Of a DNA stretch of 58,885 bases, positions 198 through 54,393 are shown one piece after another. This DNA comes from Porphyromonas sp. COT-290 OH3588 (GTDB taxonomy: Bacteria > Bacteroidota > Bacteroidia > Bacteroidales > Porphyromonadaceae). The position numbers and the translations under genes were made by a program. How positions within the stretch are numbered: position 1 is the stretch's first letter; every line of letters begins with the position of its first letter. Where the stretch lies: assembly GCF_000769075.1 (NCBI RefSeq), contig NZ_JRFC01000008.1, forward strand, positions 1 through 58,885. The letters are read 5' to 3'. Below the pieces are notes generated by a model. That model did no database searches and had not been told where the DNA came from. It worked only from the letters and a program-made list of their open reading frames with translations.

Positions 198-1538
198 ATG
201 CAACTAGACAAGCTCAAGGCCGTCTCTCCCGTCGATGGTCGCTATCGTGCGCAGGCCGAACCATTGGCTGCCTACTTCTCCGAGGAGGCGCTCATTCGTT
301 ACCGAGTGCGTGTCGAGATACTCTATTTCATCGCTCTAAGCAAGGAGATTCCTCAGCTATCTGGTCTACTCGATCGTATTGACGAGGAGAAGCTTCACGA
401 TATCTATCGCCACCTGACAGCCGAGGACGCCCTGCGCATCAAGGAGATCGAGTCTGTAACCAATCACGACGTCAAGGCCGTAGAGTACTATATCAAGGAG
501 CAGTTCGATCGCCTAGGCCTGAGCGATGAGAAGGAGTTTATCCACTTCGGTCTGACCTCCCAAGATATCAACAATACCTCTTTCCCTCTGATGACTAAGG
601 AGGCCCTTGAGCAGATATATCTACCAGCCCTTGATAAGGTCATTGATACTCTGCGTGCCTATGCCGAGGAATGGGCGAATATCCCCATGCTGGCTCGTAC
701 ACACGGCCAACCAGCCTCGCCAACTCGTCTAGGTAAGGAGATACAGGTATTTGTCTATCGCCTAGAGCAGCAGAGAGCACAGCTGGTACAGATCCCTCAT
801 TCTGCCAAGTTTGGTGGAGCTACGGGCAACTTCAATGCCCATCGCATTGCCTATCCTACGCACGACTGGCTCGGGTTTGCAGCGAACTTCGTGAGCTCTA
901 TGGGGCTAATGCGTGAGAGCTATACGACACAGATTGCCAACTACGACCACACGGCAGCCCTCTTCGATGCCCTAGAACGCATCAACGTAATCCTCACGGA
1001 TCTTGCTCGTGATATGTGGATGTATATCTCGATGGACTACTTCAAGCAGCGCATTAAGGAGGGAGAGGTTGGCTCGTCTGCGATGCCACACAAGGTTAAT
1101 CCGATTGACTTTGAGAATGCCGAGGGTAATCTAGGCCTTGCGAATGCAATCTTTGGTTTCCTCTCTCGCAAGCTACCGATCTCTCGCTTGCAGAGGGATC
1201 TTACGGACTCTACTGTTCTGCGCAATATCGGGGTGCCTCTAGCACACACGCTTATTGCTCTCAATAGCTTGAGTAAGGGTCTAGGTAAGGTGCTGCTCAA
1301 TCAGGAAGCCCTAGAGGCCGATCTAGAGCGCAACTGGGCTGTGGTGGCCGAGGCACTCCAGACGATCCTTCGTAGAGAGGGCTACCCTAAGCCCTACGAG
1401 GCGCTTAAGGCTCTTACCCGTACCAATGAGGCAATCACGGCGGACTCGATCGCCAAGTTTATCGACACGCTTGATGTATCTGAGCAAGTCAAGAGTGAGA
1501 TGCGCCAGATTAGCCCAGCGACCTATCTAGGCTACTAA
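198..1538 (+). CDS. purB: Adenylosuccinate lyase
   Basis: Cytoplasmic lyase of purine synthesis that cleaves SAICAR to AICAR and adenylosuccinate to AMP, releasing fumarate. The 446-residue length is normal for the family. Visible signatures are the N-terminal SPVDGRY, the ARTHGQPAS segment with His169, and the fumarase/ASL superfamily loop GSSAMPHKVNP at residues 292-302, where Ser294 would be the catalytic base. The start at 198 is chosen because the ATG at 190 reaches a stop after five codons. It is a single-gene unit with a strong hairpin just behind it, followed by an unrelated glycoside hydrolase. Assignment is by family motifs and is very secure. Confidence 0.97.
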   Translation: MQLDKLKAVSPVDGRYRAQAEPLAAYFSEEALIRYRVRVEILYFIALSKEIPQLSGLLDRIDEEKLHDIYRHLTAEDALRIKEIESVTNHDVKAVEYYIKEQFDRLGLSDEKEFIHFGLTSQDINNTSFPLMTKEALEQIYLPALDKVIDTLRAYAEEWANIPMLARTHGQPASPTRLGKEIQVFVYRLEQQRAQLVQIPHSAKFGGATGNFNAHRIAYPTHDWLGFAANFVSSMGLMRESYTTQIANYDHTAALFDALERINVILTDLARDMWMYISMDYFKQRIKEGEVGSSAMPHKVNPIDFENAEGNLGLANAIFGFLSRKLPISRLQRDLTDSTVLRNIGVPLAHTLIALNSLSKGLGKVLLNQEALEADLERNWAVVAEALQTILRREGYPKPYEALKALTRTNEAITADSIAKFIDTLDVSEQVKSEMRQISPATYLGY

Positions 1539-1556
1539 TCATACGCAATAGATACC

Positions 1557-1605
1557 CCGAGAGCGAGGAGAGGCATCTCTTTTGGATGTCACTTCTCGCT
1601 CTCGG
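1557..1605 (+). terminator. Hairpin behind purB
   Basis: A perfect 11-bp stem (CCGAGAGCGAG at 1557-1567 with its complement at 1595-1605) closes a 27-nt loop 19 nt after the purB stop. There is no clear T run afterwards, so it may be a weak terminator or an mRNA 3'-end stabiliser between purB and the mannosidase gene. Confidence 0.6.
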
Positions 1606-1653
1606 AACTATTGAGCATACCACAGTCATTAATCGCAAAAACAATCCGAATAG

Positions 1654-3927
1654 ATGAAGAAGAAGCAATACCTCAGACACGGTCTGCTAGGGCTGATGTT
1701 TATGAGTACTCTGAGCCTTTCGGCACAGAAGACGGGACGCCTAATCGACGAGGTCAATCCGTTTATCGGGACTAGTAACTTCGGTACGACCAATCCGGGC
1801 GTCGTCCTACCCAATGGTTTGATGAGCGTAACGCCTTTCAACGTGATGGGCGGTGGCGAGTTGAATACATTCGATAAAGATGCTCGCTGGTGGAGCACAC
1901 CCTACTCGGCCGACAACAAGTATTTTACGGGCTTTAGCCACGTCAATCTAAGTGGTGTAGGTTGTCCAGAGCTAGGTAGCCTGCTCCTCTCGGCTGCCTC
2001 GGGAGAGCTAGATGTAGACTACAAGAGCTATGGCTCTACACTGAGCAAGGAGCACGCACACCCGGGCTACTATACAGCTCATCTAGATAAGCACAGCATC
2101 AAGGCCGAGCTGACGGCGACGGCACGTACCTCCGTCACGGCCTTTACCTTCGAGCGTGGAGGCAAAAGTAATATCCTGCTCAACCTAGGCCAAGGGCTGA
2201 CGAACGAAAGTGGAGCGACTGTGCGCTTCGTCAATGACTCTACTATACTAGGTAGTAAGCTCATGGGCACCTTCTGCTACAATCCACAAGCCGTCTTCAA
2301 CCAGTACTTTGCGATGCGCATCAGCAAGCGAGCTCCCGAGAGCGGCTACTGGAAGAAGCAGCCCCCTATGACGGGGACAGAGGCCGAGTGGGATCATGAC
2401 CACGGGCGCAACAAGATCTACCGCTCTTATCGCCGTGAGATGAGTGGTAATGATATCGGGGTGTGGTTCTCTTACGATACGCAACCCGGCGAAACGATCT
2501 ATGTGCAGACGGCAGTTTCTTTCGTTAGTGCCGAGAATGCTCTGCTCAACCTAGAGACAGAGCAGCCCAAGCTAGACTTCGCTGCCACACGAGCTCGAGC
2601 AGAGGAGGCGTGGGAGCAGGCGCTCTCTCGCATCGAGGTAGAAGGCGGTAGCCCAGATCAGCGTACGATCTTCTACACGGCGCTCTATCATTTGCTCATT
2701 CATCCCAATATCCTGCAAGATGTCAATGGCGAATACCCCATGATGACTAGCCTCAAGACGGCCAAAACCAGCCACAACCGCTATACGGTCTACTCGCTCT
2801 GGGATACGTATCGCAACGTGCACCCACTACTCTCTCTGCTCTACCCGGAGAAGCAGTTAGATATGGTACGCACGATGATTGATATGTACAAGGAGAGCGG
2901 CTGGCTACCCAAGTGGGAGCTATATGGTCGTGAAACGCTTACGATGTCGGGCGACCCATCTATCACAGTAATCAACGACACTTGGCAGCGTGGTCTAAGG
3001 GACTTCGATGTCGCTACCGCCTACGAGGCGATGCTCAAGGGGGCGACGACACGAGGCAAGGACAACCTACTACGTCCCGATATTGATGACTACGTCAGCC
3101 GTGGATACATTCCGCTGAGGGAGAAGTTCGACCACTCGGTGTCTAACTCTCTCGAGTACTACATTGCCGACTGGAACCTCGCACGCTTCGCCGAGAGCCT
3201 CGGTAAGAAAGCTGATGCCAAACGCTTCCATCAGCGCTCGCTAGGTTACAAGCACTACTACGACAAGGAGTACGGTTTGCTGCGCCCCATTACACCCGAT
3301 GGCAAATTCCTATCTCCCTTCGACCCCGTCTTGGGGCGTGACTTCGAGCCTAACCCCGGTTTTCACGAGGGCAACTCTTGGAACTATTCATTCTTCGTGC
3401 CACACGACGTCAAGGGGCTTGCTAAGCTGATGGGTGGCGAGCGCAAGTTCGTGGCTAAGCTACAGAGTGTATTCGACAAGGGTAACTACGACCCAGCCAA
3501 CGAGCCTGATATCGCCTATCCATTCCTTTTCACCTACTTCCCCAAGGAGGCTTGGCGTACGCAGAAGATTACCAAAGATCTGTTACAGACAGTCTACCAC
3601 AATGCGCCCAATGGTATCCCGGGCAATGATGATACGGGTACTATGAGTGCGTGGGCGATCTACACGATGCTCGGGTTCTACCCCGACTGCCCGGGGGATA
3701 TGAGCTTTGCGCTTACGACGCCGACCTTCAAACGAGTAACCCTGCATCTAGACCCTAAGTACTATAAGCAGCCTAAGCTCGTTATTGAGCGTCAAGGAGC
3801 GGAGGCTGATACTTACTTCAAGCGCCTCAAGGTTGGCGATAAGACGCATAGCAACCGCTATCGTCTGAGCAATGAAGAGCTCGTGAACGCAGGTCAAATC
3901 GTATTCTTCACTCAAGATAAGCACTAG
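1654..3927 (+). CDS. GH92 family alpha-mannosidase, exported
   Basis: Likely exo-alpha-1,2-mannosidase acting on host high-mannose N-glycans in the periplasm or at the cell surface. The 757-residue protein has an N-terminal signal peptide (about residues 1-24, LSLSAQ before the cleavage region) with no lipobox Cys. GH92 hallmarks are the VNPFIGT start of the mature protein, the HEGNSWNYSFFVPHD block with Glu572 as the probable catalytic acid, and the GNDDTGTMSAW block (residues 657-667) of the calcium-binding active site. Length matches the family. It is convergent with a sulfatase gene and shares a terminator with it, which fits a glycan-degradation role. Exact linkage specificity (1,2-, 1,3- or 1,6-) cannot be read from the sequence. 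Confidence 0.93.
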   Translation: MKKKQYLRHGLLGLMFMSTLSLSAQKTGRLIDEVNPFIGTSNFGTTNPGVVLPNGLMSVTPFNVMGGGELNTFDKDARWWSTPYSADNKYFTGFSHVNLSGVGCPELGSLLLSAASGELDVDYKSYGSTLSKEHAHPGYYTAHLDKHSIKAELTATARTSVTAFTFERGGKSNILLNLGQGLTNESGATVRFVNDSTILGSKLMGTFCYNPQAVFNQYFAMRISKRAPESGYWKKQPPMTGTEAEWDHDHGRNKIYRSYRREMSGNDIGVWFSYDTQPGETIYVQTAVSFVSAENALLNLETEQPKLDFAATRARAEEAWEQALSRIEVEGGSPDQRTIFYTALYHLLIHPNILQDVNGEYPMMTSLKTAKTSHNRYTVYSLWDTYRNVHPLLSLLYPEKQLDMVRTMIDMYKESGWLPKWELYGRETLTMSGDPSITVINDTWQRGLRDFDVATAYEAMLKGATTRGKDNLLRPDIDDYVSRGYIPLREKFDHSVSNSLEYYIADWNLARFAESLGKKADAKRFHQRSLGYKHYYDKEYGLLRPITPDGKFLSPFDPVLGRDFEPNPGFHEGNSWNYSFFVPHDVKGLAKLMGGERKFVAKLQSVFDKGNYDPANEPDIAYPFLFTYFPKEAWRTQKITKDLLQTVYHNAPNGIPGNDDTGTMSAWAIYTMLGFYPDCPGDMSFALTTPTFKRVTLHLDPKYYKQPKLVIERQGAEADTYFKRLKVGDKTHSNRYRLSNEELVNAGQIVFFTQDKH

Positions 3928-50300: not shown

Positions 50301-50957
50301 ACCACGTGACACGGGCTTCTCTGGGTTGAGGCCTCGCTCACGGAATTCACGCAGAGCGTCCCAGTCGATGAACTGAGCTAGATCTTCGTTGTCTAGAGCC
50401 TCAATCTTCTGGATCTCGTGTGAGGTGCGGAAGCCGTCGAAGAAGTGAATGAAAGGAACGCGAGCCTTGAGTGTGGCCAAGTGGGCTACGCCTGCTAGGT
50501 CCATAACTTCCTGCACAGAACCAGTACAGAGCTGAGCAAAACCTGTGGGGCGAGCGGCCATAACGTCTTGGTGGTCGCCGAAGATAGAGAGCGCATGCGT
50601 AGCGATAGCACGAGCTGATACATGGAACACCGTTGGGAGTAGCTCCCCTGCGATCTTGTACATATTGGGGAGCATCAGCAGTAGACCTTGAGATGCAGTG
50701 TAGGTCGTAGTAAGTACCCCAGTCTGTAGTGAACCATGTACAGCACCTGCTGCACCAGCCTCGCTCTGCATTTCTTCTACCAGTACGGTCTCTCCAAAGA
50801 TGTTTTTGCGTCCTTGGGCGGCCCATTCGTCTACGTATTCGGCCATCGTAGAGGATGGCGTGATTGGGTAGATACAGGCTACCTCGCTAAACATATACGA
50901 GATGTGCGCAGCAGCCTGATTACCATCACAGGTCAGAAACTTTTTTTCTTTCGCCAT
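47400..50957 (-). CDS. nifJ: Pyruvate:ferredoxin (flavodoxin) oxidoreductase
   Basis: Single-chain PFOR of 1185 residues that converts pyruvate and CoA to acetyl-CoA and CO2 and reduces ferredoxin, the central fermentation step of anaerobes. Domains in order: the N-terminal TPP-dependent domain (YPITPSSTMAE), the CoA domain, a ferredoxin-like insert with two [4Fe-4S] motifs (CIQCNQCAYVCP and CLGCSNCVDVCP), and the C-terminal TPP-binding domain with CSGCGETPY and GGDGWAYDIG. The frame is open to 51017, but MAKEKKFLTCDGN at 50957 is the family start. The leader from the promoter is about 220 nt. The 54-residue ferredoxin at 11077 is its likely partner. Confidence 0.97.
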   Translation of the reverse strand: MAKEKKFLTCDGNQAAAHISYMFSEVACIYPITPSSTMAEYVDEWAAQGRKNIFGETVLVEEMQSEAGAAGAVHGSLQTGVLTTTYTASQGLLLMLPNMYKIAGELLPTVFHVSARAIATHALSIFGDHQDVMAARPTGFAQLCTGSVQEVMDLAGVAHLATLKARVPFIHFFDGFRTSHEIQKIEALDNEDLAQFIDWDALREFRERGLNPEKPVSRGMAENPDVYFQHREAANPFYDAVPEIVQEYMDKLATVTGRKYHLFDFYGAEDAEHVIIAMGSVTETIREVVDHLRAKGEKVGLLSVHLYRPFSAKHFLAAMPKTVKRVAVLDRTKEPGADGEPLYLDVRSCYYGVDNAPLIVGGRYGLSSKDTTPAHILSVFENLSMRLPKDHFTIGIVDDVTFTSLPEKEDLIFEDNKTFEAKFYGLGADGTVGANKNSVKIIGDNTNKYCQAYFAYDSKKSGGFTCSHLRFGDNQIRSTYLVVTPDFVACHVPAYLRLYDVTRGLKKNGTFLLNSVWDVDSVEKHLPNKVKRHLAKNNIRFYMINATGIAAEIGLGNRTNTILQSAFFKISGVIPYDLAVEQMKKAIVKSYGKKGEDVVNKNFAAVDRGSDVIEVPVKPEWANLPNDPTEVYPHDSEFIQKIVRPINAQDGDSIPVSQFRGREDGTWENGTAASEKRGVASHVPEWIAENCIQCNQCAYVCPHATIRPFVMTADEQAKTGVNAIKAIGKQFADMTFRIQVNVLDCLGCSNCVDVCPGNKNGKALVMQEIEGQFPEQGNWDKMVSEVSSKAHLVDITSNVKNSQFATPLFEFSGACSGCGETPYVKLITQLFGDRQMVANATGCSSIYSGSAPSTPYTVNERGEGPAWANSLFEDNAEFGLGMHLGYTKMRERLVRLAEECIANPDIDHAELKGLLREWIDNREDAPRAKALADAIKPIIARRITGVCQKMYDMRSYFIKRSQWIIGGDGWAYDIGFGGLDHVIASGANVNILVLDTEVYSNTGGQSSKSTPVGAIAKFAASGKRVRKKDLGMIATTYGYVYVAQIAMGANPAQTLKAIREAEAYNGPSVIIAYSPCISHGLKSGMGKAQKEEVNAVNCGYWHLWRFNPDLEAEGKNPFILDSKEPNWDNFIPFLEGEVRYASLKKQYPAEATELFEEAKRNSQWRYAGYKRLANRIWEEETISAE

Positions 50958-51186
50958 TTGTAGTAATCCGTTATTAACATTGTAAGACTTCTCAATGCTC
51001 CTCGACCGCCAGCTCAAAGAGCAGACAGAGGTGAGCGCTATAGTTAGGTTAGGGTTGTTTAGTAGGTTTTGTGCGAAACGAGCTTCGGATTATAACAACC
51101 AAAAGCAGACAAACTCCCCTATCTTTTGCGATAGCGACTAAGGGAGCCTATCTTTTTCGTCCACATATATACCTAATATTTGGTAG
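50958..51186 (-). other. Long leader of PFOR
   Basis: From the predicted transcript start near 51180 to the PFOR ATG at 50957 is about 220 nt. I see no recognised riboswitch. The long leader may hold regulatory structure or an unseen small open frame. Confidence 0.4.
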
Positions 51187-51218
51187 CAAAGGTAATTTTT
51201 CTTGACAAAACTACCAAA
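51187..51218 (-). promoter_or_regulatory. Consensus promoter of PFOR
   Basis: On the minus strand: TTTG (51218-51215), 20-nt spacer, TACCTTTG (51194-51187). Complete match to the Bacteroidota consensus. Confidence 0.85.
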
Positions 51219-51454
51219 GTGTATTGATTAAGCCCTTTGATTTCATATTGTATCGTACTACAATATAGAGCCGTTGCTCTAGCTATTTGTGCTTGAGGGA
51301 GAACAGAAATAGACTATGCCTAGACTATGATACCTCCAGTGCATCATGATATAAATACGTATATACGAGTGGAGGCCACATCGAGATTTCGTTCGATGCA
51401 GCCTCCACTCTTCCTAGGGGTCTATCGGTTGCTACTTGTGAGCAGCTCGTTAGA
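51219..51454. other. Gap between PFOR promoter and the CDKK gene
   Basis: Apart from the hairpin at 51367-51410, the stretch holds no supported gene or repeat. An open frame on the plus strand at 51327-51809 is the mirror of the CDKK gene and not real. Confidence 0.4.
51367..51410 (-). terminator. Hairpin behind the CDKK gene
   Basis: A perfect 10-bp stem GAGTGGAGGC/GCCTCCACTC with a second ATCGA/TCGAT stem inside, 45 nt after the stop on the minus strand. The U tail is poor. Confidence 0.65.
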
Positions 51455-51802
51455 TTACTTCTTGTCGCAAGCTTTTTTCTTATCGCAAGTCTTACCTTCC
51501 TTCTTGTCACAAGACTTCTTGGCATCGCATGCCTTGGCGTCCTTCTTGTCACAAGCCTTCTTCTTGTCGCAAGTCATCTTAGCATCACAAGCCTTCTTAT
51601 CGCAAGACTTGTCTGCCTTGCAGCAAGCCTTCATTTCGCATGCCTTGGCATCTTTCTTGTCGCAAGCTTTCTTAGTATCGCAAGCCTTAGCTTCCTTCTT
51701 GCAGCAGTCCTTTTTCTCTGGGGTCTGTGCGATAGCTGTTGTGCTGAAAAGCATTGCTACTGCCAAACCAAGAGCACCAAAAATCTTTTTCATTTTCTTC
51801 AA
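51455..51802 (-). CDS. Exported Cys/Lys-rich 'CDKK' repeat protein
   Basis: A 115-residue protein that I do not recognise as a named family. It has a clean signal peptide (about 1-26, ending TTAIAQ) with no lipobox, and a mature part of 89 residues holding 15 Cys and 32 Lys. The Cys recur every five to eight residues in units such as KACDKK, KSCDKK, KTCDKK and KACDAK; there are two CC pairs. No aromatic residue occurs in the mature part. It might bind metal, form disulfide polymers or stick to polyanions, but none of this is shown. It has its own full promoter and hairpin, implying real expression. Start could be ATG at 51802 or 51793. Confidence 0.8.
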   Translation of the reverse strand: MKKMKKIFGALGLAVAMLFSTTAIAQTPEKKDCCKKEAKACDTKKACDKKDAKACEMKACCKADKSCDKKACDAKMTCDKKKACDKKDAKACDAKKSCDKKEGKTCDKKKACDKK

Positions 51803-52122
51803 TCTTTAGTTTTAGTTAGTATTATAAATGTGATATTCTCTGCTAAGGCTAGCTCGAGAGCCAAGCCTCTATGCAAAGCGAGTGGGCAATCTGATAAGCG
51901 AGAGTACCAAAGGCTCATAAATACCTCCACGAATGCACACCTATTCTCATAGCCTCTGAACCGCAAATATATTGTAATTTATCTTTCTTGACCAAAAAGT
52001 GAGTAAAAAAGTTCTTTTTATGTGATTTTTTATCCCAAAACAGACCTTAAATAGATCGATTTTTGACTTTTTCGTCCATTAGTCCTTGGTCAAGAAACTA
52101 GATTAATCTACCTATCAGTCTA
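51803..52122. other. Gap between CDKK gene and sialidase
   Basis: Holds the CDKK promoter at 51964-51996. The 52000-52122 part behind the sialidase has no clear hairpin; it is AT-rich with several TTTTT tracts. Confidence 0.4.
51964..51996 (-). promoter_or_regulatory. Consensus promoter of the CDKK gene
   Basis: On the minus strand: TTTG (51996-51993), 21-nt spacer, TATATTTG (51971-51964). The leader to the start at 51802 would be about 155 nt. Confidence 0.75.
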
Positions 52123-54393
52123 CTATCGTTTGCCAGCACGTAGCCAGTCTAGAGAGATGCGTGTGAAGTAGATGTCGTAGGCAGGTCTATCGTCCTCCTC
52201 AGAGATAATCCCTATCGTGCCGTCGGGCAAGACAGCAATCTCGCTATACGCCGCCTCGCCTAGGCAAAGCGTGCGTGCATAGGGCCAAGTCTTACCCTCA
52301 TCTTCGCTCATATAGATACGTAGATTGGTGCGATTGTCTGCCTCTAGGAGCGTATGTAGGAGGATATTCTTTCCTCCTTTGCCATCTTCTTTGCTGTATC
52401 GTGTTAGTGATGCGTTGCAGGCATTGCCACTCAGATCTTCCCATACACGAGGTCCCGACCAAGTCATACCATGATCTTCCGAGGTTACATAGGTACGAGG
52501 TGTAGCCTTGTAGGCTCTATTACGGCTAGAGATCATCAGATCTCCGTTGGCGAGCTCCACGACTTTGGCTTCATCTCCGTTGTAGCGAGCCACAGGAGAG
52601 GCCTGCCATGTAGCTCCATTGTCGTCGGAGTAAACCATTACATTGTCCATCTGTCCGCCCCATTTAGCATCAATACGCATTGCAGCAACGAATGCAATGC
52701 GTCCCTTGCTCGTGATAATGCCATTGCCAGAGCCAAAGAATCCGCCATTGGGGTAGCGATCTGTCTGCACCATAGCGGTAATATCCTTGACAGGCGTCCA
52801 AGTCTTACCTCCATCGACACTCTGGCTATAGTACATCTCTAGAGGCTTCTTGGCTGCGCTTGGGTAGAACCATAGTCCGGAGCCTGCCACCATCACCATA
52901 TGTATGGTCTTGCCGTCCGTGGCAATAGCGGCATCTCCATAGCCATGCTCGGGAGTCCCTTGTGCCACTGTAATGGGTTCACTCCACGTCTTGCCGTAGT
53001 CTTTGCTTATTTTGACCTCTACATCTATATCTTCTGGTAGATCGTAGTCGCTATTCTTACGCTTGTCTATCGCAGCGACAAGTGAGCCGTTATCTAGGCG
53101 CACCAAAGCTGGAATGCGGTAGTGCGCGGAGCGGTTTTCTCCCGGTGTCCAGACGAGCGTGCGCCCTAGTACGATCGTTTGCTCTCCAAGACTGCCTTGG
53201 TCTGGCGTGAAGTTCTTGCTCTTGGCAAACTTCAGGTTCTTAATCTCCGCCTTGATGATGTTCCCCTCCGTGGCATCCTCTGCCACGTCAGCCACTACCC
53301 AGAGCTTACTTAGATTAGAGAGCGTGGGGGTACCCTTGGCGGCACGCAGTGTAACTAACTCCTCAGAGGCAATTCCCTCGGCTACCAGCCTACCGGGGTT
53401 GCGATGATCGTACCGGTCGCCATTGGCAGTTTCATAAATCTTCAGGGCTTTGATATCCGATAGTTGTGTCGTCCCTGTAAGGCTGATGCTGATCTCTTGC
53501 AGCACATCTGGAGTGCGAAGTCCTACGGTCGCTAGACCTAATGCCTGCGTATCGCCACGACCTACAAGGCTACCATTGGTGCGGCGAGCTGTGAAAGACT
53601 TGATATTGGCATGCTCAATGCTTGTATCAAAGCCCATAAGGGTTGCCGTATGCTTGCCCGTAACATCTCTGATTGTGGTATCGCCAATTTTATAGCCATC
53701 GAAGTCGAAAGCGGCGACGAGTCCTTTAGTCCGAGGCTTGATGCGCTCTGTAGCTCTATCGGCGAGTAGCTCTTGGGGCGACAAAGCACGCTTGTAGAAG
53801 CGCAAATTGTCGAGCATGCCGCCGAAGTGCGCAAAAGCCTTACCCTCTTCCTGACCAGCACCGATGAAGAGTGGCAGGTCATTGGTCGTGTGCCAAGGCT
53901 CACTAGCCGAGATGTCGGCATTGTGAGTTTCATGCCCATCTACATAGAAGCGGATTTTGTTTGCTGAGCGATCGACCACCCAAGCCACATGATACCAGTG
54001 GCGCATCTCGCTTTTTTCGGCCGATGGCGCCCAGCCGTCGAAAGCATTCTTCGCACTGCCTTGGCGATCAGACAGGGTCGCTCCAACGAAATTCTTTGCC
54101 GTATTGCGTAGTACCATGAGGTCATATCCAGATCTGTCTATACTATCTCGTTTGGTATTGAGGCGGCGACCAACGACACGTTGAGTAGGCCCCCAGAAAT
54201 AAGTCCGGTTGGAGTTGAACCAGAGGCTAATGGTATAGCTCTCGTTTGGAGCCACATCAAAGTCCGAATGGGCAGGTACACTGAGGTATTGCTTCGTGCC
54301 ATCTAGCTCGATGATAGAGCGATGCTTTACATCACTTGCCGTAGCTGCCAAAGCAGAGCTTAGAGCAAGTGAAACAAGAAAGGTCTTCTTCAT
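52123..54393 (-). CDS. nanH: Exported exo-alpha-sialidase
   Basis: Releases terminal sialic acid from host glycoconjugates. The 756-residue protein has a signal peptide (about 1-19), an N-terminal LamG-like lectin domain (about 25-215), the sialidase-associated N-terminal domain (about 265-390), and the catalytic six-bladed propeller (about 405-756). The propeller shows the YRIP motif (residues 425-428) and five Asp boxes at 463-470, 525-532, 589-596, 638-645 and 696-703 (SxDxGxTW). Tyr716 in AYSEI is the likely nucleophile. There is no T9SS sorting domain. It lies 38 bp after the PorT-like gene and probably shares its transcript. Confidence 0.95.
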   Translation of the reverse strand: MKKTFLVSLALSSALAATASDVKHRSIIELDGTKQYLSVPAHSDFDVAPNESYTISLWFNSNRTYFWGPTQRVVGRRLNTKRDSIDRSGYDLMVLRNTAKNFVGATLSDRQGSAKNAFDGWAPSAEKSEMRHWYHVAWVVDRSANKIRFYVDGHETHNADISASEPWHTTNDLPLFIGAGQEEGKAFAHFGGMLDNLRFYKRALSPQELLADRATERIKPRTKGLVAAFDFDGYKIGDTTIRDVTGKHTATLMGFDTSIEHANIKSFTARRTNGSLVGRGDTQALGLATVGLRTPDVLQEISISLTGTTQLSDIKALKIYETANGDRYDHRNPGRLVAEGIASEELVTLRAAKGTPTLSNLSKLWVVADVAEDATEGNIIKAEIKNLKFAKSKNFTPDQGSLGEQTIVLGRTLVWTPGENRSAHYRIPALVRLDNGSLVAAIDKRKNSDYDLPEDIDVEVKISKDYGKTWSEPITVAQGTPEHGYGDAAIATDGKTIHMVMVAGSGLWFYPSAAKKPLEMYYSQSVDGGKTWTPVKDITAMVQTDRYPNGGFFGSGNGIITSKGRIAFVAAMRIDAKWGGQMDNVMVYSDDNGATWQASPVARYNGDEAKVVELANGDLMISSRNRAYKATPRTYVTSEDHGMTWSGPRVWEDLSGNACNASLTRYSKEDGKGGKNILLHTLLEADNRTNLRIYMSEDEGKTWPYARTLCLGEAAYSEIAVLPDGTIGIISEEDDRPAYDIYFTRISLDWLRAGKR

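Follow-up and report, generated by a model that had tools for sequence, protein, structure and literature searches.

The window analysed here, 58,885 nucleotides in length, is a whole contig of the 2.29-Mb genome of Porphyromonas sp. COT-290 OH3588 (G000 below). It contains a short gene for a Cys- and Lys-rich protein, which we read as standing alone between the genes for a BNR-repeat, sialidase-like protein and for pyruvate:ferredoxin oxidoreductase; no known metal or redox-stress gene adjoins this copy. Upstream of the sialidase-like gene there is a type IX secretion gene, PorT/SprT (NF052311; 54432-55175, minus strand). The features of the locus are as follows.

51964..51996, minus strand: Bacteroidetes-type promoter, TTTG-N21-TATATTTG, the -7 box lying 170 nt 5' of the ATG
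51455..51793, minus strand: coding sequence of the Cys/Lys-rich exported protein (112-residue frame at 51458-51793), ATG start, TAA stop
51728..51793, minus strand: putative signal peptide MKKIFGALGLAVAMLFSTTAIA, recognized by eye, with cleavage expected after AIA
51458..51727, minus strand: mature part, 90 amino acids from Q23, imperfect CDKK repeats
51367..51410, minus strand: terminator-like hairpin 3' of the stop codon, 18-bp stem, 8-nt loop, no T-run

The encoded protein starts with MKKIFGALGLAVAMLFSTTAIA followed by QTPEKKDCCKKEAKACD. The 90 residues of the mature part include 15 Cys, 32 Lys, 14 Asp and 14 Ala, with no Ile, Leu, Val, Phe, Trp, Tyr, Arg or His at all, and have a pI of 9.17. 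Cys makes up 1.0% of residues in five other genes of the window, at which rate the binomial probability of at least 15 Cys per 89 residues is about 2e-14. The tandem repeats are imperfect, with periods of 42 (2.8 copies, 75% matches) and 18 (3.2 copies, 74%). Cys residues are spaced by 1, 5, 6, 7 or 8 positions only, so that CxC, CxxC and CxxxC are all missing, and a Cys-bearing face on a helix found no support in the window protein (power 0.23 at 100 degrees). A signal-peptide-like N-terminus is seen also in most of 15 aligned relatives. The initial annotation had described an exported protein, rich in Cys and Lys, lacking aromatic residues and made of CDKK-like repeats, with its own promoter and a hairpin. 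This description holds, export being apparent from a signal peptide recognized by eye and the repeats being real, though imperfect. The start codon is another matter: TTG at 51802, proposed in that annotation and located three codons 5' of the ATG at 51793, is less likely than the ATG, as the starts of the relatives were likewise placed at ATG and the alignment runs from the MKK of the window protein.

Codon usage of the gene agrees with that of five neighbouring genes. The GC content at third positions is 0.554 here and 0.555 in the neighbours. Lys is encoded mostly by AAG in either case, with 28 of 34 Lys codons in the Cys/Lys gene and 114 of 160 in the neighbours. The element at 51964-51996 fits what we take to be the consensus of Bacteroidetes-type promoters; five such two-box sites are present in the window, that of the Cys/Lys gene being one of them, versus 0.27 expected in shuffled sequences. 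The hairpin at 51367-51410 has a predicted energy of -37.2 kcal/mol (z -6.6), though it lacks a T-run, and a terminator scan did not flag it. Strong hairpins are predicted also 3' of the other eight Porphyromonas genes discussed below, which were folded without a shuffle control. Four of the nine Porphyromonas upstream regions, the window included, contain TAnnTTTG, as do 11.8% of random stretches of 330 bp. The window gene alone has the form with both boxes, and therefore we claim no shared regulator site. The region 50900-52300 has no match in Rfam. An antisense frame of 160 amino acids at the same locus was set aside as a gene, because the relatives use the Cys/Lys frame. Most likely, the latter is a real gene and belongs to a recurrent class.

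Searches with the window protein found no Pfam family at E<=1, no PHROGs match at E<=0.1 and no solved structure at E<=1; NCBIfam yielded a single match, to a pilus protein with E of 0.64, taken as chance. No description of such a family was found in the literature searched, which lay mostly outside subscription papers. The earlier view that the protein has no characterised family is thus sustained in these four databases. Its treatment as an isolated case is not, since similar proteins recur in Bacteroidota. The class, for which no description was found, is most likely commoner and less metallothionein-like than the earlier annotation held.

Detection of the relatives depends strongly on the method. 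On genome contigs, 139 stretches fit the sequence pattern and none was confirmed by tblastn, perhaps through low-complexity filtering. The first single-sequence search gave matches in 6 of the 26 genomes of the genus, and four loci that it collected (L005-L008) are not such proteins. A wider profile, made of 15 collected proteins, matched 19 of the 26 at E<=10, and reading of the frames left eight accepted genomes: G000, G002, G011 (with two genes), G013, G014, G016, G019 and G020, among which G000, G011, G013 and G019 had themselves supplied members of the profile. The protein of G014 is atypical, being acidic and lipoprotein-like with a net charge of -7. The protein of G019 is 52% identical to that of the window, and there is no close relative of the window gene in the set. 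Within the genus, presence is patchy and position differs between species. No gene of this kind was found upstream of the oxidoreductase gene at 20 other loci of the genus, where the frames flagged at L014, L018, L025 and L026 lie inside or against the oxidoreductase gene and were rejected. The relative in G019 adjoins malate dehydrogenase, and the same site at 24 other loci has no such gene within 1.5 kb. Neighbours are partly shared only at L003, L004 and L057.

Outside the genus, a DNA pattern scan of named genomes produced 21 loci. At 12 of them (L035-L039, L042, L044, L048-L050, L053 and L054, titled Bacteroidales, Prevotella, Bacteroidaceae or uncultured bacterium), Cys/Lys repeats come after what by eye is a signal peptide or a lipobox. 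One locus, L034, is from a P. pasteri record and encodes a protein also found in G011; three (L040, L041, L051) look unrelated; the remainder comprises fusions, partial sequences and unclear cases. The wider profile matched 33 of 393 genomes at E<=0.001 in an even sample of Bacteroidales, including G000 and G011, and a narrower one, built from four Porphyromonas proteins, 3 of the 393. We sorted 28 Bacteroidales loci (L084-L111) by reading: 16 encode small exported proteins of the present kind that have 3 or more Cys, three encode other Cys-bearing types (L087, L088, L111), seven have at most 2 Cys (L093, L100, L102, L105, L108-L110) and two are ambiguous (L090, L106); some of the matches in this order are merely Lys-rich. 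The sample of the phylum had matches in 8 of 395 genomes, G000 among them, comprising short Cys/Lys proteins (L181-L184) and others with 0 to 2 Cys. Because of the seven Cys-poor loci and of the difference between 3 and 33 matched genomes, we regard the profile as partly driven by composition, and low-complexity likeness among members does not prove their common descent.

Purifying selection is seen in three close pairs of relatives, with dN/dS of 0.08, 0.14 and 0.26; the window gene is in none of these pairs. Cys was kept in them at 25 of 25, 12 of 13 and 4 of 4 sites, or 41 of 42. In a fourth, more distant pair, silent sites are saturated and 20 of 24 Cys are kept. The spacing of Cys is also biased. 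In 33 proteins, CxC occurs 9 times, versus 45.6 in shuffled sequences, and CxxC 7 times versus 38.3; spacings of 4, 6 and 8 are overrepresented, and the frequency of CC is as expected (56 versus 55.0). Many of these proteins had been picked by the CDKK pattern, and for this reason the test was repeated on other sets. None of 1000 shuffles was as low in CxC and CxxC as the nine Porphyromonas proteins (10 together), in which mainly CxxC is depleted (1 versus 12.9; CxC, 9 versus 15.3), or as 11 Bacteroidales profile matches, which have neither motif; for five proteins found through the sensor kinases described below, with one such motif, 17 of 1000 shuffles were as low. CC is in excess in the Bacteroidales set (20 versus 6.6) and in the kinase-found set (7 versus 2.9), and slightly so in the Porphyromonas set (22 versus 17.5); spacing 8 is overrepresented in each of the three sets. 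Some members contain His as well, e.g., L117 with its EGHKC-type repeats.

A sensor histidine kinase is encoded divergently from the Cys/Lys gene at 8 of the 28 Bacteroidales loci (L085, L086, L091, L092, L095, L098, L099 and L101), whose genomes belong to five families. The kinases form one similarity group, and each of the five scanned in Pfam has HisKA and HATPase_c domains; one more kinase of the group, next to L093, was not counted, its neighbour being a Cys-free gene in the same orientation. Of the 16 loci having 3 or more Cys, 8 are linked, versus 0 of the 7 with at most 2 (Fisher P 0.052; the three loci of other Cys types and the two ambiguous ones were omitted). Genes for an OsmC-like protein and a thioesterase are near four of the eight linked loci, one of each having been scanned in Pfam, where the OsmC-like gene was confirmed; OsmC has a role in peroxide defence. 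Searching from the kinase side, in 60 genomes, we obtained 30 loci and used the 14 with near full-length alignments. Six of these kinases (L112, L113, L115, L117, L119 and L123) have a divergent gene for a small exported Cys-bearing protein, where L115 is L086 again and the protein of L119 is poor in Lys; the locus of L136 had no upstream DNA to judge. A response regulator, recognized by eye, is downstream of 11 of the 14, and none was seen after L112 and L115, both among the six linked to such a gene. Cys in the sensor region is equally common in kinases with and without the gene. Scans of two adjoining regulators gave RprY as the best match (273.5 and 237.1 bits, below the cut-off of 370). 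RprY has been tied to the oxidative-stress response in P. gingivalis (PMC3646045, PMC6032018). G000 has one RprY-like regulator (318.4 bits, also below the cut-off) with a kinase match adjoining it, and 5.2 kb read around this pair contain no Cys-rich exported frame. The window copy has no divergent kinase alongside, so that the linkage informs on the class and not directly on this copy. At L179, a 4Fe-4S protein (Fer4_5; 1244-2916, minus strand) comes after a Cys-bearing exported gene that is divergent from a kinase.

Several known systems resemble the window protein in part. Bacterial metallothioneins, such as SmtA and BmtA, typically arrange their Cys in CxC and CxxC. MymT is also named as a bacterial metallothionein (PMC7558416). 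The window protein is likewise small, Cys-rich and free of aromatic residues, but it differs in having a signal peptide, in its many Lys, in the lack of CxC and CxxC and in the lack of any Pfam hit; metallothionein profiles in Pfam and NCBIfam do not match it. The initial comparison to metallothioneins therefore stands for Cys content and fails for arrangement, as the two motifs are absent here and scarce in the relatives, which argues against ordinary metallothionein clusters. Csp1 copper storage proteins are exported, with a Tat-type signal, and contain many Cys on a four-helix core (PMC7558416). Apparent export and abundant Cys are shared with the window protein, and several relatives titled Prevotella or Bacteroidaceae are rich in CxxxC; however, the signal of the window protein looks by eye to be of the Sec type rather than Tat, and the protein contains neither CxxxC nor the Ile, Leu, Val, Phe, Trp or Tyr for such a core.

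CpxP and ZraP of E. coli are accessory proteins of envelope stress two-component systems, and cpxP and zraP are each divergent from the gene of their own sensor kinase. This resembles the arrangement of some of our relatives, which are small exported proteins too; Spy, described as an envelope stress protein (PMC8144458), is a further case for comparison. The window copy differs in that no LTXXQ domain was found in it (Pfam, E<=1) and no kinase is adjacent. CDKK-type repeats lie before or beside Spy/LTXXQ-like stretches, as judged by eye, at L043 (563-1090, plus strand) and L052 (7605-8000, minus strand, cut at the locus end); L052 has a DUF4890 match with E of 1, below cut-off, and L043 no Pfam match of the Spy/LTXXQ type. 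At L035 (3201-3683, minus strand), a stretch that by eye is Spy/LTXXQ-like occurs beside CDKK-type repeats, and the Pfam match of its neighbour (E 0.027) is below cut-off. Bufferins and the Buf_EGKCG/oxazolin group have a signal peptide and Cys in repeats, stand-alone precursor genes have been described, and DoxX is a gene of bufferin clusters (PMC12452194). The window protein shares the signal peptide (by eye) and the Cys-bearing repeats, and differs by its Lys content and lack of a Pfam hit; the MNIO modifying enzyme, PF05114, was found in none of the 26 genomes of the genus, with the control positive in 2 of 14. At L182 (1022-1701, minus strand), a short Cys/Lys exported protein is encoded directly upstream of a DoxX-like gene (20.0 bits, cut-off 23.6). 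Thus, at least one defining feature of metallothioneins, of bufferins and of CpxP/ZraP/Spy was looked for and is missing in each case; the window protein may nonetheless work like a metal or redox buffer.

The explanation that we favour, and to which we give about an even chance, is that of a polycationic, unfolded protein that is exported and buffers soft metals, oxidants or both by its thiols. The small protein would be exported by Sec, its signal having been recognized by eye, and would act in the periplasm. Having no Ile, Leu, Val, Phe, Trp or Tyr for a core, the mature chain should not fold alone, and it would stay unfolded as long as its 15 thiols are neither engaged with soft metal ions (such as Cu(I), Zn, Cd, Hg or As(III)) nor joined in disulfides; such bonds could order the chain, which is why this explanation is favoured. 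The 32 lysines may provide solubility, retention near the anionic envelope and higher reactivity of the thiolates, and the protein might sequester metals and/or take oxidation in place of other envelope proteins. The metal and thiol chemistry suggested initially is plausible; the oxidising periplasm assumed with it may or may not apply here, VKOR (PF07884) having turned up in none of the 26 genomes of the genus. We base the proposal on composition, transcription signals, recurrence of the class, selection on the relatives, Cys spacing and kinase linkage, and assume that the window gene acts like its relatives. Against it we count the lack of a stress-gene neighbour, the scarcity of CxC and CxxC, the low-complexity likeness, the patchy presence, the lack of a Cys-rich exported frame around the RprY-like pair in G000, and the fact that sensor Cys is unlinked to gene presence.

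The divergent kinase at 8 of 28 loci in five families of genomes, the 6 of 14 kinases that have such a gene and the regulator (by eye) following 11 of the 14 would fit another role, in which the protein is an accessory of an envelope stress two-component system that binds the kinase and releases it when the thiols are occupied or oxidised. We think this unlikely: 20 of the 28 loci have no such kinase, the kinases of L112 and L115 lack a regulator downstream, the likeness to Spy/LTXXQ consists of matches below cut-off or seen by eye, and the window copy, with no kinase beside it, would have to be an orphan or act on another kinase. A structural or protective coat protein of the envelope, cross-linked by disulfides, would account for the many Cys behind a signal peptide and for the lipoprotein-like N-termini of L049, L050, L054 and L061 (by eye). 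The small size, an odd number of Cys in 13 of 33 members (with the mature part cut at residue 22 throughout) and the finding of VKOR (PF07884) in none of the 26 genomes of the genus make such a coat rather improbable. Little chance is given to low-complexity drift, i.e., a repeat tail that expanded after a signal peptide and is selected for no function. It would fit the imperfect repeats, weak conservation between species and patchy presence, but dN/dS is well below 1 and Cys is kept in the three related pairs (the window gene being in none of them), the five kinase-found proteins show the same Cys bias, and the gene has matching codon usage and its own promoter and hairpin. A metal-binding modified peptide of the bufferin/oxazolin kind, to which the signal peptide with Cys repeats, the EGHKC-like motifs of L117 and the sub-threshold DoxX-like neighbour of L182 point, is very improbable in a genus where none of the 26 genomes has PF05114.

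The exported thiol buffer proposed above could be placed in a broader, and doubtful, scheme: a Bacteroidota-wide class of "thiol sponges" with a Cys grammar of their own (CC and spacing 8 favoured, CxC and CxxC avoided) might serve as the sensed periplasmic partner of an RprXY-like system, and have lost its tie to the kinase in Porphyromonas. More speculatively, since Lys and Cys can be joined by N-O-S bridges, the dense Cys-Lys neighbours could form such bridges as a redox switch. Short, low-complexity genes of this kind are easily overlooked, yet they recur across Bacteroidales. Should their products act as metal or oxidant buffers beyond the inner membrane, part of the defence of these anaerobes against oxygen or metals would have gone unnoticed. 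The signal could be sought directly through the kinases that are linked to the gene in some species.

Among the profile matches, L087 (1501-1875, minus strand) and L088 (1417-1794, minus strand) encode exported proteins with DKNNNGVCDN-like repeats, which by eye are similar to EF-hand loops with Cys. At L046 (1849-3366, plus strand; the stretch contains unread bases), a Bacteroidales aldose 1-epimerase (PF01263) ends in a C-terminal run of CKEGACEKKHGE and CDKK repeats.
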